A stretch of DNA of 64,000 nt, taken from assembly GCA_029717555.1 (NCBI GenBank), contig JAMDHS010000031.1:1-64000 (forward strand). Reading direction: 5' to 3'. The stretch is from Peribolospora baueri (taxonomy: Eukaryota > Basidiomycota > Peribolosporomycetes > Peribolosporales > Peribolosporaceae). The translations under genes and the position numbers were made by a program. The notes under the pieces were generated by a model. It had not been told where the DNA came from. It did not search any database and saw only the letters and a program-made list of their open reading frames with translations. This document shows positions 9,042-52,580 of the stretch, piece after piece (the first letter of the stretch is position 1; each line of letters opens with the position of its first letter).

Positions 9042-10081
9042 GGCGGCGGCAGAGTGACAGGGTCGGGTCGAGCCGAGGACGACGGGCGAGGTGATGATGG
9101 AAGTGTTGCGACGAGCCCTCCTCGGTCATCGGTCGATTCGACCTAATAATAAAATATCGCGTCTTCCGATCGACGTCATAAAACGCCGGCGGAATGCAAA
9201 GCGCCCGATCGAAGCGACGCGTCCGGGGCGAGCCCGGCTTCGACGTCCGCCAAACAACGGTCGTCCGCTGTTCCCGTGTCTATCAGACGGTGAAAAGCAC
9301 ACACTGCGCTCGAACAAGACAGCGCTTTCGTGACGATCTGCAGAGCATGATAAGCCATGCGTTCAGGCTCTTCGACGTCGATCGAGCAAGACTTGGTGGA
9401 CCATACTGATGTGGGAACCACGTGGCCTCAATGCCGAAGCCCGATTTGGCCCATTTTTCTCGTTTTCAAGTTGATCAGCAGCAAACCATTGACTTGCCCT
9501 TCCTTCAATGGCGCCGCTTCTGACGTGGGTGATCTTTGTCCGCTCTTTTGCAAGTACACCAATCATGGTTCCCGGAAGGACGGGTTCCAAAGTTCTCATC
9601 AAGCCGGCCAAAATTTCTTTCAACGAAGTACGCGCCGACGAGTCGTTCGCGCCCGTCGTGGTCGTCGACGTTCCGGGAGACTGTATTTATCCTATCCTTC
9701 CGGAGTTGCTCAGTTTGTAGTCGATCGGGAACCGCCGAACGGGCCCGTCCTTCTTTGCGCGCGCGTGCGCATGGCACCTCCAGCGCCACGCCACGTCCGT
9801 CAGACGGACGGACGCACTTGATCAGAGGACAGCTATCATCTAGGAGCACGCGAACGGGGTGAACGAAAGTATCCCATTAAGGCCCGTTGTCCACCTGTAA
9901 ATTACCACAGCGCCAAGAGAGATTCGACTGGGAACAGCTAAAAGCCCTGAGGCGCACGTTCACTGTCAAAGGAACGCGCAGAAGGAGGGGGAGTATGGCG
10001 GTGTGGAAGAAAAGGAGGGGCGGGGTAGGGCTGCAGGCTCGGGAAGAGGTACGACCGCAGAACTGGCCATCGAGTGCAAGC
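9042..10081. other. Intergenic region between GH43 and GH76
   Basis: It holds the GH43 5' region and the GH76 3' region. A 70-codon plus-strand frame at 9508-9720 has natural-looking composition near its end but no family match that I recognise. Nothing else is supported. Confidence 0.45.
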
Positions 10082-17500: not shown

Positions 17501-20500
17501 CAGACTCGTACCGAACCTGCCCGTTTACTTAGGTTTGCTCTACTTTTGTCGCTCAGACGACGAGTCTAGGCCTGAGATGACGGTTTGGGTTATCGGTGAC
17601 ATGGATAGCCCTGGTGGGGCTACCGTCCTGAGAGAAACACTTTTGGCCATGGTGAGTAATACTCACTTTAGGAGCTCCATCAGCCCCGAGTTTGTCCTGT
17701 GCTTACCCCGGAAATGCAATGAACCCTCCATTCTTCAGGACGACAAGTTTCCATTTCAATTCAGGGTCGGAATCGTCCATCAGCCTTCGTCGTCCGCTTC
17801 ACTCCCTGCCAGATCCAGGAGCTCTCTCTCCTCGCACATTTTCAAGCTCCTCGTCTCACCTACCGCGGCTCCCACCCTCCGTCCGAGCGACTTGCTAAAC
17901 CACACAGCTTTGTCGGGAGACTCCCATCAAGAGAGCACGACGGAAGCCAGTGAGCAGGTCGTCTTTCAAGAAGCCACCGACTCGAACGACGTTCAGGCGG
18001 AACGCTTCTGGCAAAGTTACGGTCGCAAGTTCGCTGGAGTCATCGGTATCCGGGAAGGGAACGTGGGTTTCCTGGTCAACGGCCGAGTGTTAGATTCTGT
18101 CGACCCGGAGGACTGGAGCGTGCATGACTTTGAAGCGTTGTTAGCGTATGAGACTAATAAGAGGGTCCGTCCGGTCCTCGACGCACTTGAACGAGTTTAC
18201 CCCGACCCTAAAGTCTTTGACCGGTGAGCAACTCTCTTTTCAATTGTCACGGTCTCTATCAGCTAATTTATTGACTCTGTTTTTTTTTTTTGGGCAGCGA
18301 TAACTGGTGCCGAGTTGCTACTCTGGTATCATCTGTGGTAGCGGAAGCCTACGAGCCGCCAAAACCTGGTCTCTTCATCCTGCCGGCTTTGTCCCGCAAT
18401 CGCGCTTATGAGAAAATAGAAGCCAACCATACGTAAGTGGGCAGGATCCGATTCGGTCGGATTGTTCGCCTCTGACCGCCTGGTTATTCTCCTTGACAGG
18501 GCGTTCGAACTCGGCAACCCGGAGACGGCGCTCTTCCACTGCACTTTCGTCGTTGACCCGCTTTCGGAACTTGTACAAAAGTGGTCCTCTATCATGCAGC
18601 TTCTGGCGGGCATGGAAAGAACTTACGTCAAGGTCATCCTCAACCCGACACCGAACCACAATGATCATCCGATCAAACGGTTTTATCGCTTCCACGCCAG
18701 GCCACAGCTCGAGTTCCTCGAGAGCGGGTAAGAAATACGAACGGCTAGTTTGATTTTCTTCATGCGCACTCATATATTCTCCATTTGCCTTGCTTTCGGC
18801 CGACAGATCCGAAAAGCCCGCTACGATCAGTTTCGTGGGAATGCCGGAAGATGCCGTGCTTACGTTAGGCCTTGAGACCCCGGCGCCATGGCTAGTCATG
18901 CCTGAAGAGGCCATTTACGATCTCGACAACATTCGGCTGAAGGACCTCGACGAGGGCGCTCGAAAGGTTGGCGTAAATGCAGTGTACGAACTGAAGCATG
19001 TGCTCGTGGAAGGTTCGTGCCCATCCGCTTGTGGTAAATCGTACATGGCAGGAACCTGACCGACGATAACTTGCATCTGTCAAGGCCACGCGAGGGACGT
19101 CGTCAAGAAAGAAGTGCCGAGGGGCATGGAACTGATTCTCGCTACCAAAGATCACAGTCATGTCCTAGACACCATCGTCAAAGCCAATCTAGGCTACTTC
19201 CAGTTCAAGGCGAATCCCGGCCTGTGGCAACTGCACATTCGCGGTCAAGGCGTCAGTCGCGCCGTGTACGAATTGGAAAGCGTCGGCAATCAAGGCTGGG
19301 AAAGCCCGCCTATCAATGTAACCGGTCACGATGTTACAGTGACCAGCTTCCAGGGCCTAACAATATACCCAAAGTTCACGAGGAAAGCCGGGATGGAAGA
19401 GGCTGACGTTCTGGAAATCGCAAAGACGGACGACTTTAGTCCCAAAGGATTAGCCAATAAAGTTATGTCATTGTGAGTGTTGCCTCGTGATCGTGCTCCG
19501 CAAGACTTCGTCTCACGTCTTTTTTCCACGAGCATCTCAGGTTCTCTTCACTTACCGGAGGAAAGGACAATAAGGCAGCGCCCGAAGCCGTGGCATCAGG
19601 GAAAAAGGCTGACATCAACGTCTTCACGATCGCTTCGGGCCATCTTTACGAGGTAAGCCTAGTCGTCAACGGGCTTCGAGATCAGACACCACGAGAGAAC
19701 ATTGATGGTTACAATTTTGATTATAGCGTATGACCTACATTATGATTCTCAGCGTTTTGCGCAACGCCAAGAGCAGCGTCAAGTTCTGGTTCATCGAGAA
19801 CTTTTTGGTAGGTAGCGCCAAAACTGTTATCGCGAGACACAGGTGAATTGATATCCTACGTGTTCCCTTGCTGCAGTCGCCGTCTTTCAAAGCGTTCATA
19901 CCACATCTGGCCGCGGAGTACGGGTTTGACTATGAATTGATCACGTACGCTTGGCCGCATTGGCTGCGTGCGCAGAAGGAGAAGCAACGTACCATTTGGG
20001 CGTAAGTTGCACAACAATCGCCTTCGCTCTGGTGGTACCGTGACTGACATAGCTGTTTTATAGATACAAAATTCTCTTTTTGGACGTCTTGTTCCCGCTT
20101 GGGCTTGACAAGGTCATTTTCGTAGACGCAGATCAGGTGAGTCATGTGTGCCGCAAAAGCCGGTACAATGACGCAGAAGCTGACAGTTCGAACACTCACT
20201 CTAGGTGGTGCGCGCCGACCTGAAAGAGCTGGTAGATTTGGATCTGAAAGGAGCACCATACGGTCAGTTCACGATTAGGCTGCTTTTCTCCCACATTTGA
20301 CTGACATTTCATCCGATAACTGACCATCCATAGCATATCCACCAATGGGCGATGACCGCGAGGAAATGGAAGGATTCCGCTTTTGGAAAACCGGTTACTG
20401 GCAGCAATTCCTTCGTGGGCGGCCATATCACATTTCGTGAGTTGAGGTTAGCCTCACGTCTTCTTCACGCCAATTGAGCTGACCATGTAGGATGTCACAG

Positions 20501-21251: not shown

Positions 21252-23084
21252 AATCTGCTTCCAGTTTTCATCGCAAAAATCACCATTTCACGGTCCAATT
21301 TGACGAAAATCCTAGTTAGACGTTCACCAAGAAAGCAGTTGAAGAAGACGGTACAGGATGGGTGAAGGGGGCCGTGAGCACGTCGTACTCCGAGCAATAG
21401 GAGAGATGACGAGAGTTGAAGGCCACGGCTGAACGCGTCCCACTTACGGCAGGCCGCGCCGCGCGACTCATTCACACTCGTCCCATCCTCGATAGGATCT
21501 GATGTCCCGCTTTGTTCGAGGAAAGTGCAAACGGCGTCGGCAGATCAGACCTGGTGGAGACATGGCCATAGTCCATCCCCACGTAATCTCTCACTTGATC
21601 TTGCAATCATTCTCCCTTTGATATACCCTTCGGGCTCAGCAGTGGTGGGTATGGCTCTTTTGCCGAATTCTCGACCTTCCGGAGGGAAACCGCGACGGGA
21701 AGGGGTGCGGCGACCGTCTCCCCATTTATTCGCCTCGTCTCCCGGAGCGAAAGCGCAGATGCTTTGAAAGATGGACAGGTCAGAGGATCGGGGCGTTTCG
21801 CTGATAGGAAGCGAGGCCTGCCCGAGACGGCGGCATTCATTCCGATGTCTCCTACTCTTTAACCACGTAGCGAACGGGATGAGATGGGCAGATCCCAATG
21901 TCCGTTCGTCCATTTCTGTCTACACGAAGTTCTTGACACGATGTTGAGGTGCTGGATCTCGCCTGCCGACATTCCCAAGCAAACAAGGACTTCCGGATCG
22001 CCCAGGCCCCCTCCAGCTCGAGCTTGACCGGCATTGGAAGGACGCGGGTGGGAAGAGCGACGGCGTCCTGTTGAGCAGACTCGTCTCGTCCCCTCTTTTC
22101 GCCCGTCGTCGGTCCCATGTTAAGCGAATATCCTTCGAACCTGCGTGCGCGGAAACGAGCTGCAATTGTCGGCCGACAGGGCGTGTCCATATACTGTATA
22201 TGATCGGGGACGACCACCTGACTGACTCCCCCGTCGGCGCGGTGCTCTGGCAGGAGACTGTAGAGCGGACACACGGCAAGCTGCGAACGTTGAAGCAGTC
22301 GAGCATGGTTATACCTGCCTGACCAACTAGGTAATCAGGAGAAGGAGCGCTCGAGACCAGGCCGCCGTTGGCGAGAGAGGGAGATGGATGCTTCTTGCTC
22401 GTCGCGCGGCTGTGCCGATGGCTCGCTACGAAAATAAGTCGATTGACCAGCACAGCATTTCGCCATCGTCGCTATCGCTTCGCCGTCGTCCGTCTTCTCT
22501 CCCCTCCACCAAGTCCCTCTCACCTCTGTCATCGCTCGCCCGCAACACTTACCGAACGTACACGCAACGTCCCCACCTCTCGCGCGGGACAGCGACAGTG
22601 TCATAAAGAGCCCCAAGAACAGGTGAGAAATCCCTCGTATCGGTCTCCCAACGTCCCTACTCTCGCCTGCTCATCGGTTAGCTATGGTATAGCTTACGGC
22701 GCCAGCATCGTCCTCCTTCGTCTCCCTCCGTATCGCTCTACACTTGTCTTGTTACAGTAACCGCTTGGTGGCACCTCTTTCTGTCCGGTCTCGGAAAACG
22801 TTGAGCAAACACTGCAGCACAAGGGCGTTTCAAGTCGAAGGGCCGGCAGCTTTGCGTCGCTCTTCCTTTCGATCGATCGCGAAGCCAGTCTTAGCCCGTC
22901 CGTTTTGTCCTCGAGTCCCTTCTTTTCCCATCCCCCATCCTTGCCAGCCGGCGTCTGCGCTTGTGAAAACCTCTGTTACTTCCTAGGCCCCGTCAACAAG
23001 AACATTCGTCGCCCTTTTCTTCCCCGTCGTCGAGCTCGGCCCTGATCACCTGCAGAGCCCCCAACTTCGTCTCATGTGCTCGCC
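21252..23084. other. 1.8-kb intergenic region with probable 5' leader and leader intron
   Basis: No supported gene lies next to the UGGT end. From about 22,400 onward the plus strand is pyrimidine-rich like a leader. A GTGAGA donor at 22623 and a TTGTTACAG acceptor ending at 22756 could be a leader intron of the downstream ORF. The 140-codon minus frame at 21852-22274 has no recognisable features. Confidence 0.4.
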
Positions 23085-26000
23085 ATGCGTCGCACCGCGG
23101 TGATCGTCGCATCGGCATGGGACGACGATCTCGTCAAGGTCGCCGCCGACGTCGTGCTCAAGCTTGGAGCGCGTATGGATGGCGGCAGAAGCCGTGATGG
23201 GGAGCGAAATGAGCGCGAAGGGGACTCAACCACTGCTGGAACGCAAGAGCGACGAAGCACGTTAAGACCGGAGAAGGAGAGTCAGTACAGGACTGAGTTT
23301 GGCAGATACGTCGATGACGAGTTCGCCCGTAACCTCCTCAGACATGGACTCGATCGGCCGCCCAGCTTGGCACAAAGCCTCGACAACCAGGGAGACAACC
23401 AGCGGGATTTTCTTGGCGCCGACGTTGACTCTTCGTTCGTCAACCGCCTCGTCTCGCCACCTCCGCCTCCACGGCGCTTGTACCCAGTTTCTCTTCCTCG
23501 CATCGACACAAGGCGCGGATCTACCTTACGGGTGTCCTCGGGTTCCGGCCTTCATCTCTCCGCCACGAGTCCTGCGTCCTCAAAGTCCGGGATTTCAAGT
23601 CAAAAGCGAAAGAAGCGGCGCTCGAGAGCCCGCACCAGAGTCATCTGTCTCCACATTTTTGTTCTCCCGCAGCCTGCGCTGCGAGTGAGCCGCGCGCCGG
23701 AATGGGAAGATGCGACCTCGCCGTTTATTGACAAGGCGCGGGAGGCGATAAAAAGGATCAAGGGCCTGGAACGAGGAGCCGGGTGCAAAATCGTGATTAA
23801 GACGGCTCAGCTGGAAACATGGACGAGCGGGAAGAACGAACAGATAGTGCCGGTCAAGATGGACGAGTTGCACGGAGGTATGGGACAGCAGGAGAGCCAG
23901 CTGCAGCGGCGAGGCACCATACGGAGAGCCTCGCACGTAGGCTCGCCAGATCTGCATAATGGCGCTTTCCCCTTCAACTGTCATGGAGACGGCCGTGAGT
24001 CGTGGGAGGCGATCAGGCTCAAGCGGGATGGAACTATCCTCCTTTCTCAGCGACTGGCGGATGCTGGGGACCTTTCGAAGCGCCACGGGATGAAAAAGGT
24101 GAAGCACGTCAGTGGAGCGAAGATGCTAGGCTCCAAGCTCAAGAAAGCCAAGTCCAAAGTGAAGCAGGCCCCTTCGGCGCGATGGCGCCGCTCCGTAGCA
24201 CGCGACGTCCCTTCACCGTTTGCAAACCTCGAGTCTCCTTCCCCTCCTGCCTCCTCCCTCGTCTCACCGTCGTCCGCTCGTGCTGTGATCGGGCGCTTCT
24301 GGCCGACTTGGGCCGCATCCACGGAGAATGGGCTGGCGAAAGCTTATCCTTCGCAACCTCACCACTTTCCCGGTAGTGAAACGGAGCGGAGGGAGCTCTT
24401 CGTCGGCGTGGGTCAGGCGCAGCCAGCGAGGGTATCGGTGTCCAGCGACGTATCGACGCCTGTCGGTTCGTACGGCGATGATATCGCGCGTTCGGCGTCT
24501 TGGTTCGAGTCGACGATGCGGCACGATCTTGAGCGCTCCATCGAGGTCGCCGCTCTAGACCTCACGAACAGGAGCATCTATCGTCGGTCCACCTTGGGGG
24601 CTGGGTCGAAAAGTATCGTGCGCTCAGACGAGGGCGGCACTGACGACGATGAGTGGAACGACGAAGACGAGCCGGTCTCCCCACGTCGACCCGCGTCTCA
24701 GTTGCCATCCCACGTCTCCCGTAGTCACCCGACGTCAATCTCGCCGGTCCTTCTGTCCTCCGCGGATTTGATCGTCCTCGTGGCACCTTCCACTTCGGGC
24801 GACCGTTCAAGGCTGTCTCGAGGCAACTCGCTTGATGAACAGCTCGTGGCGCGACGGACCTGGGGATTTTCCTTGGGCTTTGTCAGCGCCGTTGGGCGAT
24901 ACGTCCTATCAGATGGGGCCAGTCGGGAAGTCAGACTCGAACCTTCGGAGAGTGATTCCCGTGTGCTTGATCCTCGAATGGTCATCTACGTCCCTCCCGA
25001 CATTGTCTCGAATGACGGCCCCAAGGACATGAGCGCGGATCGGACATGGCGCGAGGGGTCGGATGGCGAGCGGAGTCGACCCTTCTCACCCGGGCTAAGC
25101 AAGGAAGCTCGATCTCGACCAAAGTCGGACGTGCCGTCCTTGGCATCTTATTGCACGATCGAAGACGACTACGTCCTCATCCGACCCAGCCATTTCACCG
25201 CAGCCGACGCCACTAAAGCCGATGAGACGACGACGACGCTGCCGTCAGGCATGAAGCTCATCTCAGCTCTGACGGCTTCGGCGAACGCTCGAATGGAACG
25301 TTTGCTAAAGAGCGAACAGCAAGGAGCTTCCGAAGGGCTTCGGCGAGGAGAGATGGCAGGGAACTGGGAAGACGTGAGCCACTCCGAAGATACCCAACTT
25401 GACCCAATGGTTGGGGAGGCTGGCAGACAGCTGGGGAAAGCCACGCCTTCAATGCAACGATGTCAAGGTCAAAGTAGGGCAGGGCCAGGCCATGGACGGT
25501 CCTTCAGCGAAACCAGTTTTGGATCTCCTTACAAGAACAAACCCCTGCCATCACTGCCAAGTAGGACGAGCTCATCCGATATCGTAACCGCGTCTTGCAG
25601 CCGTGAACCGCGGCACAGTCGTTTTCCTCACTCCGCTGGCTTTGGAGCCTCGCAAGGCTGGCCGACCGCGCACTTCGGTCCTTTGCCTTTCTTACCCCAT
25701 TCCACCTATTCGCTCTCGCTATCCGGCCGGTCTCCAGAACAGATCGACCCATTTTCATCATCCGCGGAGGCGGCTTGCTTTGCAACGATGCCGACGCGTG
25801 AGAAAGGCAGTGGAGATGGGAGTCTTCCCTCTTCTTTATCAGCCCTGGAATCCTCAGTCTCGGATTGGGCGCCTGCGTCTACCGCGCCTGCCAGTCTGAT
25901 CAGCGGTGCGGCAGCGTCGAGCCCTCCCGGTCGACCTTGGCGAAATCCCAAGCGGCTACTAGAGCCCCTTGTCGAGGAGTCTCCCTTGTCGACGAGCGAC

Positions 26001-27470
26001 GGTGAAGGGCAAAGCTCGGACACCAAGTTGCCGACCTCTGACGTTCCGGAGAGACGCTTTGTCAGCGTGCAGGTCGTCGACGCCGATGCTATGCAAATCT
26101 TGGAGGCGTGCGGCCAACACTCAACAGAAGAAACACAACCTCGCGCGATGAGCGTGACAAGCTCCCTTACCCGGCAGCATGTCGATCCTGCCATCAGTTC
26201 GAGCCATGAGCTCCCCGGTTTCAGCCCGATCGCCAGAGCTTCTTCAAGATCGTGCATCCTTGGAACTGCTGATGTTGATTCCTCTCCTGGATCTCAAGCC
26301 CCCCAGTCGGCTTCAGGTTCTTGTGTAGCATTGGACCTTGGCCGTGGCTTTACGCCTTTCTCATTCGAAATCGCGGAGCTGGTGGCCTTAATGGAGAAGT
26401 CGTACAGCTCGGGAAAAGAACCGTTCCAGGTCGAGGCGCCGACGAGCCCCCTGCCAAGCGAGCCAGAGCCGCCTTTGGGAGACCATTTGGACTCGCATGT
26501 CCGGCTGGACGTTAGGTCTGGCCAAGAACAGGACGCATTCCTAGCGGCTAGCACAACGCAGCCAGACGCAACGGGGCAAAAACACGCTGAGCATCTGTCA
26601 ACTTTCCAGCCGACGGCGCCAACGAGATCACAAGGCACATGCGCGGCTACGTCGGCCCCACCGAACGATACTTCGGCTGTGCACCCCAGCCCTCTTACCC
26701 GGCGGCCTCTAACCGGTATGACTCGGAGGCCATCTGGGCCGAGACCGCCACTACGCTCGACATCTTCATCGTCGTCGTCTTCGCTCCATCCTCCGGTCGA
26801 TATTCCTTCTCAACGACGGCTCCGCAGATCGCCTTTGTCGATGCTGGCTTCGGATATGAGAAAGTTGGAGGCTACACAATCCTTTCCGCACGAGGCGTCG
26901 CCAGACGACCTGCTCTTCAGGAAGCGCGAGCGGAGCAACAGCAAGGCTACGTCTAACGAATCCACCGGGACCGAGGTTGCCGTGCGGTCTCCCTTGACAA
27001 GGCGCCTGCCCGTGCATCTCACGACCGGCCTTATTCTGCAGGACCGCCCAGCGGTCGAAGAACCCGCTATTTCTCCTCTCTGGTCAGACGCACGCGTGAC
27101 GCTGTCGTCCTCGGAAGTGTACGGTGGATGGCCACGAGACGTCGGCGAGAAGACAGAGGACGGCTTGTCAATCTCGCATTCAACGCTCGAGTCTGATCTG
27201 CAGACTGACTGCTCCATGGTCAATGGCAACGCATCCCGGAGACACTCGAACCCGCCCCCGGTAGCGTCGCCGGTGACGTCAACTGAGCACGCAGTCTTGC
27301 ACGGGATTGTTTCTCGGGAAACTTCGACATCCGGAACGGCGACCACCCTCACCCGCAATAGCAACAGACCCCGAGGCGCCAGGCCGTACATCATGGCTCC
27401 AGTGCGCCCCTCGTCAATGTCGACGACCTCGTCAAGCCGCGAAGATACGGTTCAGCGACTTGCAACTTGA
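23085..27470 (+). CDS. Large intronless Ser/Pro-rich protein of unknown function
   Basis: A single open frame of 1,461 codons from ATG 23085, in a region where almost every other gene is split by introns. I do not recognise a family. The N-terminal third has the most ordered composition: a PPPPPRR stretch at about residue 125, a basic patch (SQKRKKRRSRARTR) near residue 170, then a possible folded segment (about residues 195-320) with strand-like pieces such as CKIVIKTAQLETW and ESWEAIRLKRDGTILLSQ. A Lys-rich stretch follows at about residues 330-360. The rest is Ser/Pro/Thr-rich and probably disordered, with scattered structured-looking pieces (GFSLGFVSAVGRYVLS, RMVIYVPPDIVSN, DDYVLIRPSHF). 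No signal peptide or membrane span. It could be a cytoskeletal, polarity or signalling scaffold, but this is not shown. The frame may continue in another frame past 27450 (see next entry). Confidence 0.75.
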   Translation: MRRTAVIVASAWDDDLVKVAADVVLKLGARMDGGRSRDGERNEREGDSTTAGTQERRSTLRPEKESQYRTEFGRYVDDEFARNLLRHGLDRPPSLAQSLDNQGDNQRDFLGADVDSSFVNRLVSPPPPPRRLYPVSLPRIDTRRGSTLRVSSGSGLHLSATSPASSKSGISSQKRKKRRSRARTRVICLHIFVLPQPALRVSRAPEWEDATSPFIDKAREAIKRIKGLERGAGCKIVIKTAQLETWTSGKNEQIVPVKMDELHGGMGQQESQLQRRGTIRRASHVGSPDLHNGAFPFNCHGDGRESWEAIRLKRDGTILLSQRLADAGDLSKRHGMKKVKHVSGAKMLGSKLKKAKSKVKQAPSARWRRSVARDVPSPFANLESPSPPASSLVSPSSARAVIGRFWPTWAASTENGLAKAYPSQPHHFPGSETERRELFVGVGQAQPARVSVSSDVSTPVGSYGDDIARSASWFESTMRHDLERSIEVAALDLTNRSIYRRSTLGAGSKSIVRSDEGGTDDDEWNDEDEPVSPRRPASQLPSHVSRSHPTSISPVLLSSADLIVLVAPSTSGDRSRLSRGNSLDEQLVARRTWGFSLGFVSAVGRYVLSDGASREVRLEPSESDSRVLDPRMVIYVPPDIVSNDGPKDMSADRTWREGSDGERSRPFSPGLSKEARSRPKSDVPSLASYCTIEDDYVLIRPSHFTAADATKADETTTTLPSGMKLISALTASANARMERLLKSEQQGASEGLRRGEMAGNWEDVSHSEDTQLDPMVGEAGRQLGKATPSMQRCQGQSRAGPGHGRSFSETSFGSPYKNKPLPSLPSRTSSSDIVTASCSREPRHSRFPHSAGFGASQGWPTAHFGPLPFLPHSTYSLSLSGRSPEQIDPFSSSAEAACFATMPTREKGSGDGSLPSSLSALESSVSDWAPASTAPASLISGAAASSPPGRPWRNPKRLLEPLVEESPLSTSDGEGQSSDTKLPTSDVPERRFVSVQVVDADAMQILEACGQHSTEETQPRAMSVTSSLTRQHVDPAISSSHELPGFSPIARASSRSCILGTADVDSSPGSQAPQSASGSCVALDLGRGFTPFSFEIAELVALMEKSYSSGKEPFQVEAPTSPLPSEPEPPLGDHLDSHVRLDVRSGQEQDAFLAASTTQPDATGQKHAEHLSTFQPTAPTRSQGTCAATSAPPNDTSAVHPSPLTRRPLTGMTRRPSGPRPPLRSTSSSSSSSLHPPVDIPSQRRLRRSPLSMLASDMRKLEATQSFPHEASPDDLLFRKRERSNSKATSNESTGTEVAVRSPLTRRLPVHLTTGLILQDRPAVEEPAISPLWSDARVTLSSSEVYGGWPRDVGEKTEDGLSISHSTLESDLQTDCSMVNGNASRRHSNPPPVASPVTSTEHAVLHGIVSRETSTSGTATTLTRNSNRPRGARPYIMAPVRPSSMSTTSSSREDTVQRLAT

Positions 27471-32924: not shown

Positions 32925-35065
32925 ATCCTTCGTCCTGAGATGCGGCCAACGTCGATCGGAAGGGGGGAAGAGCGCGTGTGAGAAGATCGTCGGTCAGTGG
33001 TTAGGATGGAGAGCGGTAGCGCACGGGCGTGCTGCGGCAATGTGATCGGGGAGATGGGATGGAAGCGATCCATTCATCCATCATCGACTTTCTCCTCCAT
33101 TCGATATTCGATTCAATCACATGGATGCCTTCTCACGCGCGCCCGAGCCGGGCAGATCGTCACCCTATCTATCCAACGACCCTTGTCCCGGTCTCCACAG
33201 GGACGACCTGGGCGGGTGGCGGGCGGCGGGCGACTGGGGCGCAGCGTGTTTGGGTCCTCATCCAGCTGAAGCATTATTCCGTGTGCCAGGGTCCTGAAAT
33301 CTCTATCGACGGCTGCGGTAACTGCGGTGATGTCGGCTCTGCCTACCGCAAGAAGTCGCGGGCCACTGCGGCGACCGGCGGCGAGCGAAGTTTGGTTGAA
33401 AAACTGGCTGGGACCATTTATTTCGCGCAATTGCTTTGCGGCTACTAACCCTGTTTTATAAATGCCGACTGCGGCAAGGGCGATGTTCGCTGCCTTGTTG
33501 AATTGGCGCTGGTTTTGGGCAGGCATAGAAGGGAAGGGATTCGATTGCATTTTCATCCAACAAAATAGATATAGACATGCTTTGGAGGGGGACGATCGGC
33601 AGAGGCCATGGTCAGAAGACGAGAACTAGCGGACGTCGTTGCCGTTGTGAGCGGAGACGGGACGGGGGTCGTTGTTGACCGTCGCCGTCGTATGCTCCGA
33701 CGTCTTCGGCGAGACGTTTCGGGAAAGCAGTCAAGGTCGAGGTGGTACGGGGGAGCCGGTGTTTGCTCAGCGAGCGTTACGTCCGACGGCCGTCGATGAG
33801 GAGGGGGAAATCGCATTGAGTCTGAATCACGGACGGGGCTACGAGCGGGACCTTGGGCAAAGTATGTGTCGGAGACGCCGTCCCACTTGTCGGCCGGCCC
33901 ACGCTCGTTCGTCCGCAAGGTGTGTCCGTGGGACGGCGGAATGGTGGGATGAAATTGGGGTTAAGATTCGACGCAAACGTTCTGTCGTTCTCTTTGTGTC
34001 TCATACAGGATGAAAGGAAGAAGAGGTGAAGTGAGCGAGGTGAGCGAGGCGGGCGAGGAGGATGAAAAAGGGGAACGGGAGTGGAAGTGGAGCTGGTACT
34101 GGAAGTATAACTGGAAACTGGAGCTGGAGCTCGCCGCTGTCCTGTGGCCCGCAGCGAGTCCGGAAGTGGGTTCGGGTCGGGCTGGAGTGGAAGAAAGGAA
34201 GTGGAAGTGGAAGTGGAAGTGAAGTGAAACAGAAACTGAATCCGGCGGTGCGACTCGGACGGACGACCGACGAGGTGAGACAGCAGGGCGTCGAGGTCGA
34301 CAAGCTTGGCCGACGGACGAGCGAGACCCGAAGGAGCGGCGCGGACGAGCGAGCGAGCGATGGACTGAGCTAAGCTGAGCGGTGTTTGCCTCGACCGTGA
34401 CTGTGATTGTGACCGTCATCATCGTCGCTTCGCATCGCATCGCATCGCCGTCGCTATCGCCGTCGCCGTCCTCGTCGTACGCACGCTTGCTTGCCTGCTT
34501 GCTTGCTTGCCTCACTCCCTACTCGCCCAGCCTTGGCCTCGCTCGCGCTGTCCAAGCGCACCCGTCCGGTGGCTCCCTCGGTCCGGTCGGTTGGTTGGTT
34601 GGTTGGTTGTTTGGTCGGTCGTTCGCCGCCCGCGCTCGCCGGTCGACGTCCCGCTCCGTCTGCCGCTGATCGTTGACCATCGATCGTCCCCACCTGCGCC
34701 GATACGAGACAAGACCAAGCCTCCATCCCCTCCGACCCTGCGAGGCGGCCTGCTCCGCTGTTCTTGGGTGCTCGCAACCGTCGTCTCCTCCTCTCGTGCC
34801 CTCTCCTTCGCCTCTCCCTCGGTTTCATCCGTCCGCCGGGGACAAGCTCGGCGCCAGCTGGCTCTAGTCGGGTACAAACCCTAACAAGGCCATCCATCGT
34901 CTGTCGTCGTCGTCGGCCGTCCTTCTCCTCCTCGCTCCTCGTCCATCATCATCCCAACCACCTCTCAAGGCCATCCTCCATTCCCACCCTTGTCTTCATC
35001 TCCTCCTCCATCTCAACCACACCCCCACCACCTCATCTCACCCCCCATCGCCTCCTCCCGTCCCC
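32925..35065. other. Divergent 2.1-kb region with low-complexity DNA
   Basis: It separates the divergent NRDE2-like and velvet genes. It contains a GGAAGTGGAAGTGG-type run (about 34060-34220), GCATC/GTCGC runs (34430-34475), GCTTGCTTGC runs (34487-34513) and GGTTGGTTGG runs (34588-34610). The last part, 34,400-35,065, is pyrimidine-rich and is the probable long leader of the velvet gene. Confidence 0.5.
33113..33556 (-). CDS. Doubtful small protein, first exon only convincing
   Basis: From ATG 33556 the frame begins MKMQSNPFPSMPAQNQRQFN, then KAANIALAAVGIYKT, a short hydrophobic helix that would suit a small mitochondrial or other membrane-associated protein. A GTTAGT donor lies just after this, so the remainder of the 147-codon frame may be intron. 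I recognise no family. It sits upstream of the NRDE2-like gene on the same strand. Confidence 0.25.
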   Translation of the reverse strand: MKMQSNPFPSMPAQNQRQFNKAANIALAAVGIYKTGLVAAKQLREINGPSQFFNQTSLAAGRRSGPRLLAVGRADITAVTAAVDRDFRTLAHGIMLQLDEDPNTLRPSRPPPATRPGRPCGDRDKGRWIDRVTICPARARVRRHPCD

Positions 35066-37507
35066 ATGGACGACGACCGACCCGCCGCCAGCGACCCCAC
35101 CGCCGCCCACCCGAACCGATCATCCCCCCCACCGGGCCTCCGAATCGCCGACCTCGTTGACAAGCACGGACAGCCACCACCCAAGGCCCCACGGTCCTCC
35201 AGGAAGCACCTCCCCTCCTCCACCCCGCCTTCACGTCCGACAGGACGCTCCTCGTCGCCGCCCGTCGCCAGGAAGCCGTCCGCCAGCCGGTCACGGCCCT
35301 CCAAGCCGCCCACCCCGTCCGCCCTCCCCGCCGCCCCTTCCACCGACCTTTCGAAGACCAAGCTCGACGATGGTCCCGCCTACCAGTTTGCCCCAGTCAT
35401 GCAGGTCGTCGAGAACCGCGACCATCTGTAAGTCCAGTCCAGTCCGGTCCTGCCTCGCGCCCCGACCCCGGTCCTCACCGCTCGCCCTCCCCGTCTCCGT
35501 CCTCCCTCGCAGCGAGTACCAGCTCACGATTCGCGAGCAGCCGAAGCACTCTCGCATGTGTGGAGTGGGCGAAAAAGGTGGGCCAGCCGTGCCGCGTGTT
35601 CCTTCTCGCTCGTCACCCACACCGACGTTCTCTCACCCACCCTTCTCGTCTTCCCTCCCCGCAGCCGACCGAAGGCCCATAGACCCCTCGCCCATTATTC
35701 AACTCCGCGTGATCAACCACAACCAATTGCCGACGCCAGGGGAGAGGCCCATGGAGACGTCCAGCGCGCTGCCAGCCACCGGCGACCGTCGATCTTCTCG
35801 TCGCGCCAGCCTCGTCGCGCCGCTGTCCACCTCCGGCCGGCGCGGCACTCCGGTCACTACCTCCGCCGGTCCCGGATGGGAGGACAAGGCGTGGTACCTC
35901 GAGAACCCGTACTACTTCATGTGGGCCTCCCTCGCCCATCCCGACACCGACGAGGAGCTCCACTTGCTCTCCGACGGCAAGACGAGATACACAACGGGCA
36001 GCTCGGTAAGCTGCCTCTACCACCTCACCGACATCGATGGCTCCCAGCAGGGCTTCTTCGTCTTCCCCGACCTCAGCGTCCGTGTCGAGGGCACCTACCG
36101 CCTCAAGCTTAGCCTCTTTGAGACCATCGGCCGCGACATTCATCACCTCAAATCCGTCTACTCTGTCCCCTTTCATGTCTTTACCGCCAAGCGCTTTCCC
36201 GGCATGGAAGGTGGGTGCCACATCCAAAGGTGGCCGGGGGCAATCGACGATACGATCGATCGATCGGTCGTCCATCCAACGTGGACGACCGTTCGTCGAC
36301 CGGAGAAAACGCTACCGCTCGCCGGGCCTGCTGTGCTGACCATGCGATTTTTCTCCTTTCAGAATCCACCCCGCTCTCGCGTGCCTTTGCAGATCAGGGC
36401 CTCAAGGTGCGCGTGCGGAAACATCCGCGGATTCGCGTGCGTGACGACAAAGGCGAGGTCATCACGGACGACGATGATGAAGACGAGGACGACGGCGGCG
36501 GCGGCGACATGGAAGTGGAAAAACCGCCGGTGAAAAAGGCGGCAAAGCGAAGGAAAAGCGCAAGGTCCACGGCCGCACTCGGAATGTCCAAGCTCCAGCT
36601 GCGCGCCAGCCCGGCCCTCAGCACCAGTGGCACGTCCGCCTCGGCCGACCGGCGTCCCAACGGGCAGGGTTATGCGCCAGCCACGCCGGCCACCGCGTCG
36701 TCCTCGTCGCAGAGGACGACGCCGGTCGCAGCTGGTCGGCCGGAGGCAACAGCCGCCGTCGAACCACGATGGGTCGGCTCGTCCGGCGGTGTCGTCGTGC
36801 ACCCGCCGCCCTACGGCCATCCTCCTCCGCCCCCGCTTTCTCACGCTCCCGTCCACCATCGGCCCTTCCATGTCCCCGTGCCGCGCTCCTACGTCGGCCC
36901 TTCTCAGCGGTACGAGCCGGCGGATCGTCAATTCTCTGCGCCCCATTCCACCTACAACCCCGAGCCCTACTATCCGCCTTCCGAGCCTTTTTACGGCGGC
37001 CCTGCTGACCCGCACGCCCAACCGCCGCCGCCGTACTACCGTCCGCCGGCGCCGTCTCACGCCGTCTGGTCACCGTCTCCCATTCGTCCGATGGCGATGG
37101 TCGCGTACGAGCACGCCCGTCCGCCGTCGGCGCCACCGTCGATGCGGGAAGCACCCTCGTCGATGCGAGAAGCGCCGCCACCGTCGTACCCGTCCGCCAC
37201 CGCCGCGCCGCCGCACCCGGCCTATGCCCCAGCCGCCGCCGCCGAGCCGCCCTATTATCCCCATCCCCATCCCCATCATCCCCGACCAGAATCTCCCTAC
37301 CCGGCGCTGCCGCAGCGGCCAGAGTCTCCTTACCCTACTCGGCCAGGGTCCCAAGGGTCGTCGTCGGATCGCTACTTACGAGCTCGCCCCCCGCCCCCGC
37401 CGCCGCTGCTCCAACGCCCTTGGTCCCCCCCGCCCTCCGAACCCGTCCGCCGACCTCCCCCTTCGCGCCTGCAGCAAACCACCGCGCCGCCACCCCCGCG
37501 GGAATGA
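35066..37507 (+). CDS. velB: Velvet-family regulator, VelB-like, with long Pro/Tyr-rich tail
   Basis: Four exons: 35066-35427, 35513-35577, 35665-36210, 36363-37507, total 705 residues. All junctions keep phase. The velvet domain starts LEYQLTIREQPKHSRMCGVG and EKADRRPIDPSPIIQLRVI. An insert of about 50 residues, rich in Ser/Thr/Arg, follows. The second half is highly typical of VelB: WYLENPYYFMWASLAHPDTD, EELHLLSDGKTRYTTGS, GFFVFPDLSVRVEGTYRLKL, SLFETIGRDIHHLKSVYS, AKRFPGMEESTPLSRAFADQ, GLKVRVRK. Velvet proteins bind DNA through an NF-kappaB-like fold and form dimers that control development, spores and secondary metabolism. After it come a DDDDEDEDDGGGG stretch, a basic KKAAKRRKS patch that could be a nuclear signal, and about 300 residues rich in Pro, Tyr and Ala with no recognised domain. 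VelB of moulds is much shorter (about 370 residues). Confidence 0.9.
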
Positions 37508-44174: not shown

Positions 44175-45649
44175 AACGGTCGCCAAGAGCCCGAAGCGCG
44201 GTCGCAAGATGAAGGGAGGGCAAACGTGGGGTACTGGGAGACGGAATCGCCCCGATTTCGACCCAGAGGATACATATACGACCACCTCCCCAACGCGCGC
44301 CGGCCCCGGTACCTGTCCAGAGAGGTGTAAACGACAAAAGCATGGTGAGATTCCAAGTCGATCCGCCGGGCGTTCCCGTACAGACGCTCACAACGATTCC
44401 TGTCCTCACCGGCCGAACACAAGGCGTGTTGTCGCTCAGTGCCACCGTCGTTCGCAGATGCCCGCTCCGGCGGTTCGCACTCTTCATCGGCCTCGCCAGT
44501 CAGTGCGCCGCGTCGCGACCCAAACTCGTGCTCACCAACGACGGCGTCACCTCAGTCGAGGCCCGTCAATTGTGAGAACCCGTCGTGCCATGTAGGTGAT
44601 CTGCGCTTTGTTGCGTGGCACTTGTTGGACCCGAGCCGAGCGGCTGACTCGTCGTTCCACCGCCTTATCGCCTCCCTGCCCATACGACGTGGCGGTCACC
44701 GATTTCGTCGCGCCAGTGTGAGTGGACTTTCAGTAACGGACGCGGAGCCGGGCCAGACTGAGCAGAGCATCCGCCTCCCTCCTTTCCATCCTCTCCTTTT
44801 TCGTCCCGTCCGCTGGTTGGCTTTTCTCGCTGGCTTCGTTCGGCGGACGAAAGGCTCGATGTGGCATGGCACGGTGAACCTGTGCCCTTGCGCTGGTCGA
44901 CCATGCCCGTGCGGCTCGCTCGCCCTCGAGCCGGTGGCAGTAAAGAAGCCTGGGCAGGTCAATGACCACCTTGACGAACGGCCCTGCTCGACCTCGTGCT
45001 GCGCGCGGACCAACTGACGCGGAGGGAAACGCGTCGCTCGCAGGCACAGGGCGAAGGAACAAACGACGCGACGCGGCCTGCTGAACCCAACACTGACCCG
45101 TCCCCGCGGTCCGTCTCACCCCTCGGTCTTCTTATCCTCCTCCTTCTTCTTCTGTACGTACAGTCGGAGTGTATCCATCTAGCTGCGCAAGCCCGTCCGG
45201 CAGTCGAAGTGTATCTATTCAACCGCTCAAGCTCGTCCGCCAAGTTAACGGACGAGGACCTGAATGGTTGACCGAGGTTCATGACCTGGGGGTTGTCCCA
45301 TGGCGCAGCGCATTCCGGTCGACCGACGATTTGAGGGAAAAAAAAAAAGCTGAAAAAGGCAATGCCTGGTGGACAGACGAACCGCGCGTGTCGACATGGC
45401 GATGGCGGTAGAGATGCGCCCATTCGACAGGGCCCGCCGCGACGTAGGAAGAGGCCTCGCTCGCACACCAAATGGGCCGCAACTGGCCATCGCTCCTTTC
45501 CCCACATTACAACGTGATCGTCTACGATGACGTGAACCGAGATCGTTTCTCATGGAAAACCATCGGAAGGACCACGAGGGAGGGCGCGTTATCCATACAG
45601 GTATCCGGATGCCCGGGCGATCGCTTTTGAGCGCTGCTATGGATTCTAT

Positions 45650-49423: not shown

Positions 49424-50475
49424 CCTCGCTCTCTCTGCCTTGAGGCTCTGCTCCATCGACCGTGGGACGTTGAGCGAGCGGAAAAAAAGGACGCCCTGGC
49501 GCGGCCCACTAGTGTTTTGGAATTTGAGCCGGCGGCACTCGCTTCGCTTCTGCTGCGGGCCCTTCCCATTGTTGCGTCTCTTTATAGTCCCTCTAGGCTG
49601 TTCACGGCCTGTATATACGGACTTGCTAAGCGGATTAATCCATCCATCCATCCATCCAACATGGAGCACGAAGACGAGGATCGCTTCTTTCGGGAGCGTG
49701 TCGACACGCGCAGCAGCAAGGCGAGAGTATCTCGGCCCCTGTCCAGTCGGACGTCTGAATATCCGCTCAGGGGGCGAAGATCGGCCTCAAAACGCCGCCC
49801 CGGCATCAATCACGCCAGCATTTTAGTATTTGGTCGGGACAACGATCCAAGGTAAAACACAAAGTGTAGAAAACGCCGTGCAAGGTCGGCAAGCGAGCGC
49901 GGATGCCGGCCTATGAGCTAGCGTGGACGCCGGCCTATGTGCATGCGCCGCCATTCCCGCCGTTCGCTCCGTTTTGTGGCGACGTCAAGATCCGATGGAT
50001 CGGGTCAGGCACGCCGGTGGGGACGAGATGCGCGCCCACCCGCTGGCCCGCCCGCTCCCCGTCGTCCATCTCCACGACGCCGACGCCAGCGTTTTTTTTT
50101 TCGGGACGAACGTAGAGGCTCGTTGGAAAGGCCAGAACTTTTGCGCCCTTCGGTCTCGCCGGCTCTTTTTTGGGACGCACCGGCATGGAACTGGAATGGA
50201 CCAAGACACGTCGTCGTCCCCAACGCTACGCAAGCCGTCCCGCCGTCGCCCGCGGGCATAAAGGGAGGACCTCAGACAGCTTCAACGTCCTCTTTGATCT
50301 TCATCCCATACCGTTCCTTTCACCTTCTCCCGAGCCGGGCTCGTTTCTTGTTGTGGCCTTTTTGCTTTTTCGACTGCAGCCGGACTGCTTCACCACTTCT
50401 TTTTTTTTTTTTTTTTTTATCTTGGGACCTTCTCTACCGCGCCCTTAATCTCAGTCACACTCCCTTCTGTTGACC
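49424..50475. other. Upstream region of the secreted repeat-protein gene
   Basis: It holds the CATC microsatellite, several short frames without features, and a promoter-like end: a GGGCATAAAGGG patch at 50257-50268 about 210 bp before the ATG, then a pyrimidine-rich leader with T19 at 50400-50418. Confidence 0.45.
49640..49659. repeat. CATC tetranucleotide microsatellite
   Basis: Five copies of catc/ccat. Confidence 0.8.
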
Positions 50476-51360
50476 ATGGTCACCTTCAGGAAGGTCGCGT
50501 TCGCCATCGCGGCCGCGGCCGTCGCTCTTGTTGCCCTCCCTCAGGGCCCTGCCAACGCCCTCACCATCCCGGCTAACGTTCGGTTTGAGCGTGCCCTTGC
50601 TCAGAATGACGTCGTCGGCGTTCGCGCCGTCGCCGAGATGGACAATCTCCCCGAATACGTGCCTCGCTTCGTTGAGGTGAGTAAGGCGGCTCGCTCGTCA
50701 TTCAGACCGTCCGTCGGTCGCGTCTTACGGCTGGGGCTCATTCGTCGGACATCTCCGCATTCTGCACGCTGCTTCCACCAGACTGTCGATGGAATGGAGA
50801 AGAGAACGTACCCAACGCCTCCGAAGGTGGACGGTCTGGTCGAGGAGAAGCGGTGGCTCCACGTGAACACCTCCGACCACGGCGGCGAGCACGGCGATAG
50901 GCCCCCCCCTGCTCCTATCCGCGAGACGTTCCCTCACCGTCCCTTCCGTCGCGCCCTTGGCGAGGTGGACGGTCTGGTCGAGGAGAAGCGGTGGCTCCAC
51001 GTAAACACCTCCGACCACGGCGGCGAGCACGGCGATAGGCCCCCCCCTGCTCCTATCCGCGAGACGTTCCCTCACCGTCCCTTCCGTCGCGCCCTTGGCG
51101 AGGTGGACGGTCTGGTCGAGGAGAAGCGGTGGCTCCACGTAAACAACATCACCGGCCACGGGGCGGGTCACGGCGATGTGGCCCCCGCTTCTGTGACTCG
51201 CGTTCATGCGTTCGGTGCTAACGCGAGGGAGATCTCTGGTGACCGTCCCTTCGGTGAGTTAGTCGACTCGCTTGTTAATGGAGTCGTCGGTCGCGTCTTA
51301 CGACTGGAGCTCACATTCATCGTGCATCTGCGTCCACAAAACACCCCATCAGACTCTTGA
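50476..51360 (+). CDS. Secreted repeat precursor with Kex2-type dibasic sites (KEP-like)
   Basis: Exon 1 (50476-50676) begins MVTFRKVAFAIAAAAVALVA, a strong signal peptide. Intron 1 (50677-50781) is GTGAGT...CACCAG. Exon 2 encodes TVDGMEKRTYPTPPK, then tandem units of 46 residues: VDGLVEEKR, WLHVNTSDHGGEHGDR, PPPAPIRETFPHRPF, RRALGE. Two units are almost identical and a third is diverged. Each unit has KR before a Trp and, in the first two, an internal RR, so Kex2-type cleavage would free His/Pro-rich peptides of about 31 residues starting WLHVN. A second intron (51254-51352) leads to DS and TGA at 51358. Splicing gives about 226 residues. The design matches fungal Kex2-processed repeat proteins, which include pheromone, repellent and cyclic-peptide precursors, but the core sequence is not one I know. 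No tailoring enzymes lie next to it. Confidence 0.75.
   Translation: MVTFRKVAFAIAAAAVALVALPQGPANALTIPANVRFERALAQNDVVGVRAVAEMDNLPEYVPRFVEVSKAARSSFRPSVGRVLRLGLIRRTSPHSARCFHQTVDGMEKRTYPTPPKVDGLVEEKRWLHVNTSDHGGEHGDRPPPAPIRETFPHRPFRRALGEVDGLVEEKRWLHVNTSDHGGEHGDRPPPAPIRETFPHRPFRRALGEVDGLVEEKRWLHVNNITGHGAGHGDVAPASVTRVHAFGANAREISGDRPFGELVDSLVNGVVGRVLRLELTFIVHLRPQNTPSDS
50827..51252 (+). repeat. Coding tandem repeat, 138-bp unit, three copies
   Basis: Copies lie at 50827-50964, 50965-51102 and 51103-51252. The first two appear to differ at a single synonymous base (gtg to gta in the HVN codon). The third matches for the first 45 bp or so, then diverges and is longer. Such near-identity suggests recent duplication or unequal crossing-over. 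Confidence 0.9.
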
Positions 51361-51490
51361 AGAACGGCGTTGGGTTCCGATGCTTTCCCCGATCAATGAG
51401 ACCGCAGAGGACGGAACGAACCCCGCCAAGTTCGTGCCGGGACAGGAACAGGGATCGTCACGGGCGGAGGCCAGGGTCCCCTACAGGTGA
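51353..51490 (+). other. Orphan exon-like remnant of the repeat-protein gene
   Basis: Directly after the second acceptor, the frame that starts ACT reads TLEERRWVPMLSPINETAED and continues 25 more codons to TGA at 51488-51490. TLEERRW closely resembles the VEEKRW repeat start, with RR in place of KR. The preferred phase-1 donor does not enter this frame (it gives DS-stop), so this is either an alternative exon reached from a different donor or a former exon now out of frame. Confidence 0.45.
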
Positions 51491-51530
51491 TTCGCCGGAC
51501 GGGACCACGGCGAGTGTGGGCGGAAGACGT

Positions 51531-51600
51531 TAATGAGTCTCGATTAAAAATAATCTAAAACTTCGATTGCTATAATATTAATTTTCGCAATCGCTCATTA
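51531..51600. repeat. AT-rich island with nested inverted repeats
   Basis: In GC-rich surroundings this 70-bp block is mostly A and T. The outer arms are TAATGAG (51531-51537) and CTCATTA (51594-51600). The inner arms are CGATTGC (51564-51570) and GCAATCG (51587-51593). A small hairpin, GATTA-AAAA-TAATC, lies between. It could be a terminator or poly(A) region of the gene upstream, or a replication or protein-binding site. Confidence 0.55.
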
Positions 51601-52580
51601 TAACGCGAGGACGGTCGGAAATCTAATTAAGGAGATGTAGGTGGGAAGAAAGTGGACGACGTTGTCCACGGGCGGCGTTTTTAGGCAGGACAAGCCCGCA
51701 CTAGCCGCGGTCGGCCGCTGTCATGACGGTGATCTACCGAGATGACGGAGCCTAGGGCCCTCAGATGCCGCTTCATGTCCCCATTTGAAATATGGATTCC
51801 TCTAGACAGAGCCAATGCACGCAACGGGGCAGGCGAGTCAATGTGAGCCAAGGCTCACAGTGATCGTGTCTCGAATCGGCCAGGTCAATCTTTGTCAGTC
51901 TGTCTAGTCTATGTTGGCAGCCAGGCGTGGGGCGTGGGCGTGTTCCGTCGTGTTGGAGAGGACACGAGCAGGGCTGAACTTGATAGCTCAGCCCAGTTCA
52001 CAACGAGCCTGGCTCGAGCAAACGAACGACGAAAGCCGATTGCGATGGTGGGTATTGGCGCCGTAATGCAACCTCATCGCCGAGAACGATGGATAATGGA
52101 TCGGAAGGAAGGAGGACGTTGAAAGGCGTTCAGCCGGTGACACGGAGGCCGAAACTCAAGCTGGCCGGACCGCGATGCGGACGGGTCGGAGACGTCTCGG
52201 TACATGAGCGCCCATGCAAATGTGGGCCTTGTGCACGTCCCAGCGTTTGCTTCCCTTGTCCGTCAACCTCGCACGGCGCAAAGAGGACGAAGGACGGCCG
52301 ACGGTGTCTCTTCTTCTTCTTCGCCCGTCGGCCGTCGCGTTCGCGTCGTCGTCGTGCCCGCAAGATAACCTTGGCAGCTGCGGCAAGCCTCCTCAGATCG
52401 CTGATCGCGCTCCCCCCTCGTCGGCGTGTGCACTCCATTGTCGACCGACGGGGAGGACGACATACCCTACACGTTCTTTCCCTTCTTATTAGCGAGGTCA
52501 ACCCCCCTTAGGCGGATTGCTTTTTTACCATCTCATCCGCCGTACGACCCCTTCGATCTGCACCTTTCCGTCGAGCAACC
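51601..52580. other. Intergenic region before the RanBD gene
   Basis: No supported gene. Frames here are short and overlapping. The last 100 bp are a pyrimidine-rich leader. Confidence 0.45.

Follow-up and report, generated by a model that had tools for sequence, protein, structure and literature searches.

A probable precursor of secreted, Kex2-processed peptides and a paralogue with a different payload behind the same pre-pro region

The window, that is, the whole 64-kb stretch of DNA analyzed here, carries on its forward strand, at 50476..51360, a frame of 294 codons (294 amino acids) that, according to the ORF listing of the window, is open throughout. Two putative introns, each with a GTGAGT donor and a CAG acceptor, lie inside this frame and are themselves open in it (50677-50781, 105 nt, and 51254-51352, 99 nt). 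The spliced model that results, model A, predicts a protein of 226 amino acids with the same stop codon (51360) as the unspliced frame, laid out as a signal peptide (residues 1-28), a pro-region (residues 29-75) closing with MEKR, a spacer of 16 residues closing with EEKR, and a tandem array. The features of the locus, with the correspondences to a paralogue on contig C90, are as follows.

50212..50475, forward strand: promoter and 5' UTR, common to the paralogue by blastn and alignment, with CATAAA here and TATAAA in the paralogue
50476..50559, forward strand: probable signal peptide, residues 1-28, starting MVTFRK, hydrophobic core of GRAVY 2.5, predicted cut between ANA and LT
50560..50676, forward strand: exon 1 portion of the pro-region, up to RFVE; residues 1-66 of exon 1 have 80% protein identity with the paralogue
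50677..50781, forward strand: putative intron 1, GTGAGT..CAG, phase 0, 105 nt, in an equal place and phase in the paralogue
50782..50805, forward strand: end of the pro-region, TVDG-MEKR, the first Kex2-type site; MEKR is present in the paralogue
50827..50964, forward strand: repeat unit 1 (R1), with the spacer VDGLVEEKR, the peptide WLHVNTSDHGGEHGDRPPPAPIRETFPHRPF (50854-50946), RR and ALGE
50965..51102, forward strand: repeat unit 2 (R2), identical to unit 1 in protein and in 137/138 bases
51103..51253, forward strand: repeat unit 3 (R3), with the spacer and WLHVN of unit 1, then NITGHGAGHGD...SGDRPF, without RR
51254..51352, forward strand: putative intron 2, GTGAGT..CAG, 99 nt, resembling intron 1; the paralogue has the homologous stretch 3' of its stop codon
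51353..51360, forward strand: final 8 coding bases of model A (..D-S-stop)
51361..51620, forward strand: 3' UTR, of which ~51500-51614 aligns with the paralogue; from 51363, ERRWVP.. is in frame via the model B acceptor only

The n-, h- and c-regions of the leader and its A-x-A site are visible by eye and hydropathy alone, and the cut position of the signal peptide was placed by the A-x-A rule. Among the splice models, the predicted model A is preferred because the paralogue has that same intron 2 acceptor. Model B, which uses another acceptor and gives 266 amino acids with the tail ERRWVP.., was ranked below it, the acceptor in A being that of the paralogue, and so was model C, in which intron 2 is retained and the product has 259 amino acids. 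The EERRW encoded 3' of intron 2 resembles another unit start and is out of phase with the junction of model A. The two putative introns are also alike, with 77 of 94 aligned columns equal and a local score of 56 that none of 1000 shuffles reached (shuffle maximum 25); therefore, an intron-exon module was probably duplicated within the gene, likely a case of intron multiplication. The paralogue's own two introns resemble each other more weakly (75/93 columns; local score 19, with 36 of 1000 shuffles as high), and a genome DNA search for intron 2 as a dispersed element matched the two genes only.

The array is the highest-scoring of the 22 rows returned for the window by Tandem Repeats Finder (138 bp x 2.6 copies, 50825-51186, score 637). 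R1 and R2 differ by a single synonymous change in 138 bases. The description in the initial annotation, of a signal peptide, 46-residue units and two near-identical copies, is correct as far as sequence can show. R3 encodes the protein of R1 over its first 14 codons, with one synonymous and no amino-acid change, and is diverged afterwards; VDGLVEEKRWLHVN is kept by R3. In the core, by comparison, dN/dS between R1 and R3 is ~1.0 over 26 codons, a small sample. It seems, then, that the spacer and the cut site of the array are held while the core is drifting or changing. The dibasic sites had been placed before WLHVN and after RPF in the units: KR does precede WLHVN in 3/3 units, RR follows RPF in 2/3 only, and an extra KR, that of MEKR, precedes the array. 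Likewise, the proposed 31-residue peptide running from WLHVN to RPF holds for units 1 and 2 only, and the product expected from unit 3 is another peptide, of ~43 residues.

Cutting in silico at each KR or RR after residue 28 produces 7 fragments, of 47, 16, 33, 13, 33, 13 and 43 amino acids. The secreted part, of 198 amino acids, contains six such sites, and at least six were present in 665 of 20,000 shuffles; with one unit only, 1198 of 20,000 shuffles equal or exceed the count. The number of KR/RR sites alone is thus weak evidence for cleavage, barely beyond chance. It is position that supports cleavage: KR is placed alike in each of the three units and at the two sites of the paralogue. An aliphatic residue at P4 is said to be preferred by Kex2 (PMC8528282), and the Glu that VEEKR has at P4 is not the preferred residue, which counts against cleavage. 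As a DNA pattern with Arg as CGN only, VEEKRW occurs in 4 places in 22.1 Mb, all of them in the two genes, and the backward control of this pattern in 2 places in 22.1 Mb. The residues that follow KR/RR in the product are WL, TY, GS and AL. The 31-mer is hydrophilic (GRAVY -1.22), with 4 His and a PPP and an unmodified mass of ~3557.8 Da, and the 31-residue cores have neither Tyr nor Cys. No Pfam family matched over the cut-off in the product, in line with the initial annotation, or in the payload of the paralogue. AlphaFold2, run on exon 2 alone, gave a mean pLDDT of 50.5 in the best model and of 26-34 in the remaining four, and says little.

A candidate kexin gene is found on contig C169, with a P-domain match of 70.7 bits, over the cut-off, that crosses 2 TGA codons, presumably an intron; an S8 domain in an exon nearby (profile positions 34-197 of 288); and Kexin as the top match of the candidate among solved structures (E 2e-72). 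The first long ORF of this gene had no Pfam match. Kex1 is a member of the S10 carboxypeptidase family, for which 14 matches, spread over four contigs, exceed the cut-off. The 7 in-silico fragments, the kexin in the genome and the EEKRW site in the paralogue together support the original reading of the locus as a secreted repeat precursor of the Kex2 type.

A leader search of the genome (22.1 Mb, 178 contigs; E <= 10) recovered, apart from the window gene itself, a sole relative, the paralogue at C90:580204-580903 (L003:3705-4404), and no third leader-bearing gene. The leader proteins of the two genes are 80% identical. In blastn, 50212-50869 of the window matches L003:3457-4111 at 77% with gaps, in an alignment that begins ~260 bases 5' of the start codon and reaches the codons immediately after EEKRW, and ~88% of the aligned DNA columns of this front end are identical: 192/218 in the 5' flank (ungapped), 177/201 in exon 1 and 93/103 in intron 1. 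The 3' intron (86/99) and a portion of the 3' UTR align again. Because exon 1 is no more similar in DNA than intron 1 or the 5' flank, some of the front-end conservation reflects no more than a recent duplication. Exon 1 has 13.5 nonsynonymous changes over 145.7 sites and 11.5 synonymous changes over 52.3 sites, that is, a dN/dS of 0.38 (Fisher p 0.014 on rounded counts), which points to moderate purifying selection. Intron 1 of the paralogue, 112 nt long, contains an in-frame stop and, for that reason, would need splicing. When the 9.5-kb L003 was compared to the window by blastn (E 1e-3), the matches were confined to the window gene and its immediate upstream region, and the tblastx matches elsewhere were short and low-scoring among the first 40. 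It seems that one gene was copied together with its control regions.

Between the EEKRW site and the 3' intron, the DNA of the two genes does not align beyond chance (score 17 against a mean of 18.3 over 300 shuffles), and likeness of the payload proteins is limited to the first 18-20 residues (WL..NTSDHGG..PP). The start of the paralogue's payload resembles unit 1 to a degree attained by 0/1000 shuffles; against unit 3, 568/1000 shuffles do as well. This payload consists of 103 residues, is lysine-rich, with a pI of 10, and includes neither Cys nor KR/RR. The only KR sites of the paralogue are at residues 74-75 and 91-92 of 195, a number that equals the shuffle expectation (mean 1.98; 12,498 of 20,000 shuffles have at least 2), and both correspond to sites of the window gene, MEKR and VDG[L/F]VEEKRWL. 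The payload also carries a 24-bp tandem repeat of its own, present twice (KKQKDDWT-like units). Conservation of the repeats and of KR among orthologues had been named as a check of the repeat reading; no orthologue was found in the two protein searches, and the paralogue keeps the first two KR sites and not the repeats. Such a pattern fits a processing front end with a changeable payload and makes it less likely that the 31-residue sequence as such is strongly constrained.

Among the other DNA searches of the genome, one with 599 bases from the promoter to the intron matched the window gene and the paralogue only; a 290-base query from the 3' end returned the self-match only, though the paralogue has part of that 3' end; a promoter stretch of the paralogue matched only itself, though blastn detects 50 bases of similarity to it at 50131-50174 in the window; and the search for the origin of the paralogue's payload matched that payload alone. 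These negatives are soft, as short or gapped matches are missed. Protein searches returned no match at E <= 10, either with the window gene, among 7995 scored candidates, or with the gene pair, among 7994; only the candidates with the largest number of shared 5-residue words were scored, so that relatives with few words in common may escape. A search with a neighboring forward-strand ORF at 34677-36530, which encodes a velvet-domain regulator (PF11754), gave 216 protein matches at E <= 0.001. Among the best 120 of the 216, the best named matches are from Ustilaginomycotina (Pseudozyma, Violaceomyces, Sporisorium, Exobasidium and others), at ~60% identity over 39% of the query, and a near-identical protein is not among the matches listed. 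The database, by virtue of these matches, contains Ustilaginomycotina fungi, and the velvet neighbor places the fungus itself in this subphylum.

The window gene resembles the Kex2-processed repeat proteins (KEPs), as defined by Le Marquer et al. 2019 (PMC6339444) and Umemura 2020 (PMC7329392), in its predicted signal peptide, its tandem units of 8-100 amino acids between KR/RR sites, and the lack of a Pfam domain. Its 7 fragments exceed the 4 set for KEPs by Le Marquer et al., who also ask for a signal peptide and for the lack of a membrane domain (PMC6339444). The rule given by Umemura calls for at least 3 tandem repeats between Kex2 sites, each of at least 8 amino acids and none above 100 (PMC7329392); here, VDGLVEEKR with WLHVN occurs three times, and the full core is identical twice, with the third copy diverged. 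Umemura 2020 reports 7878 KEPs, 2560 of them without homologue, and a mean of 5.30 per basidiomycete strain (PMC7329392), and KEPs are described as mostly unique at the genus level or above (PMC6339444, PMC7329392). What may set the window gene apart from other KEPs is the conserved acidic pro-region of 47 residues and the existence of a paralogue that has this pro-region and is a repeat protein of another sort, if one at all. In the same subphylum, Ustilago maydis Rep1, Rsp1 and Hum3 resemble the window gene in that their repeats are split by Kex2 motifs, and Rsp1 is, like the window product, small (260 amino acids) and hydrophilic (PMC4617103). However, the units are of 46 amino acids here and of 18 or 21 in Rsp1 and 31-36 in Hum3, and there are 3 of them compared to 11, 12 and 17 in the Rep1/Rsp1/Hum3 set (PMC4617103). 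The window gene also differs in having no hydrophobin domain; none of the three proteins was matched in our two protein searches, and it is by their descriptions that they are set apart from it.

Two further systems bear on the comparison. The alpha-pheromone precursors of ascomycetes and the Ste13-trimmed KEPs likewise contain repeated peptides cut by Kex2, whereas the window product has no X-Ala or X-Pro after KR/RR and thus no Ste13 signature; the pheromones of basidiomycetes, for their part, are prenylated and a-type (PMC9769878). By mass spectrometry, Vogt et al. identified linear peptides from KEPs in mushrooms; they describe kep deletions without phenotype, KEPs of Coprinopsis have been expressed in Pichia pastoris, and function is not known for most KEP peptides (PMC9769878). 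Outram et al. 2021 divide Kex2-processed fungal effectors into class 1, from which bioactive peptides are released, and class 2, in which one protein is released from a pro-domain (PMC8528282). In layout only, and with no claim that either product is an effector, the window gene corresponds to class 1 and the C90 paralogue to class 2, on one pre-pro region. The K2PP class 2 layout of the paralogue comprises a signal peptide, a pro-region that ends in KR in the first half of the protein, and one payload, which is in this case lysine-rich, Cys-free and matched by no Pfam family over the cut-off. We infer that one pre-pro front end may serve both an array of peptides and a single protein processed from a pro-domain.

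The window gene is probably a pre-pro precursor of secreted, Kex2-processed linear peptides. In the scheme that we propose from the positions of the sites, the signal peptide (residues 1-28) would direct the product to the secretory pathway; in the late Golgi, kexin would cut after MEKR, freeing the acidic pro-region of 47 residues, as well as after each VEEKR and each RPF-RR; and a Kex1-type carboxypeptidase would remove the basic residues. The outcome would be two identical 31-residue peptides, hydrophilic and rich in His and Pro, one related peptide of ~43 residues, and short spacers. The promoter, leader, pro-region, intron 1, spacer and EEKRW would make up a delivery module that also serves the lysine-rich payload of the paralogue. 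Because the payload changes fast while the processing is kept, we consider that the role of the payloads is most likely extracellular, directed at other organisms or at the environment of the cell, with a probability not far short of even.

Several other readings of the locus deserve consideration, and two of them, those that end in surface or in cyclized products, include the precursor step as well, so that the probabilities are not meant to add up to one. It appears improbable that the Kex2 products remain on the hyphal wall, form fibrils and alter surface properties, in the manner of Rep1. Ustilago maydis Rep1, from the same subphylum, is Kex2-processed to products of 35-53 amino acids (PMC4617103), a range that includes the third peptide here and lies slightly above the 31-mer, and AlphaFold2 places strands in the repeats, with low confidence. 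Yet the Rep1 products are described as amphipathic and surface-active, whereas the 31-mer is hydrophilic on average (average hydropathy being no test of amphipathicity or fibrils), the three units compare with twelve in Rep1, and the payload of the paralogue is basic and not repeated likewise. Far less probable still is a precursor of cyclized or otherwise modified RiPPs of the dikaritin type: the architecture is that of ustiloxin-type KEPs (PMC7329392), but the cores are 31 residues long and devoid of Tyr and Cys, where a dikaritin has a short core with Tyr, as ustiloxin-type cores do. No tailoring domain was detected at E <= 0.001 in the 28 ORFs scanned of the 125 window ORFs of at least 150 amino acids; a profile search of one genome found no UstYa/DUF3328, a weak result given that the control was also silent. 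The preference of the initial annotation for a linear over a cyclized product is supported by the composition of the cores and, weakly, by the negative UstYa/DUF3328 search.

There is also a small chance that the protein is secreted and stays uncut, for example, as a His-rich wall or metal-binding protein in which KR/RR is incidental to an Arg-rich composition. The marginal excess of these sites over shuffles and the richness of HGGEHGD in His and acidic residues would suit such a protein; the equal placement of KR in every unit and at the paralogue's two sites, the lack of any further KR/RR in the paralogue's payload, the better conservation of the spacer than of the core between R1 and R3, and the kexin in the genome all speak for a product that is cut. 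We would give similarly low odds to a decaying duplicate, its product unexpressed or unimportant and its repeat a by-product of slippage. Only two copies and no orthologue were found, exon, intron and flank are equally diverged, and the unit-like stretch past intron 2, which is not in phase with the junction of model A, may be what is left of a former unit. Against decay stand the open frames and GT-AG splice sites in the models of both copies, the dN/dS of exon 1, and the retention of the promoter and 5' UTR.

As a KEP, the secreted precursor encoded in the window is ordinary; the switch of payload is the interesting part and is new here. The payloads could differ through exchange of a block or through fast slippage divergence from a common payload, and the alike start of the two payloads allows either. 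More specifically, but quite tentatively and with the odds rather against it, we suggest a lineage-specific delivery module, from the promoter to EEKRW, behind which whole payload blocks, bounded by the cut site and the 3' intron, are exchanged. If this is what occurred, an array precursor became a single-protein precursor or the reverse, two classes of Kex2-processed secreted proteins that have been treated apart are connected, and it becomes more explicable why so many such proteins are without homologues. The pair offers an example of payload replacement under kept processing, and the leader together with VEEKRW could be used as a marker for seeking other payloads in related fungi. Judged by titles and the starts of abstracts, a payload switch in a KEP was not found described among the papers listed; in a literature search, the motifs VEEKRW and EEKRWL were not found, and WLHVN turned up once, in a clinical paper with no bearing on the subject.

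Elsewhere in the window, the reverse strand carries a glycosyl hydrolase of family 43 (8013-9125; PF04616, E 6.1e-43). On the forward strand, the longest open frame listed, of 1474 codons (23046-27467), is without a Pfam match at E <= 0.001, and ORFs with Thioredoxin_12, 13, 14 and 15 domains occupy 14645-18224, a set found in UDP-glucose:glycoprotein glucosyltransferase. A 40-bp tandem pair with 79% matches lies at 45161-45239.
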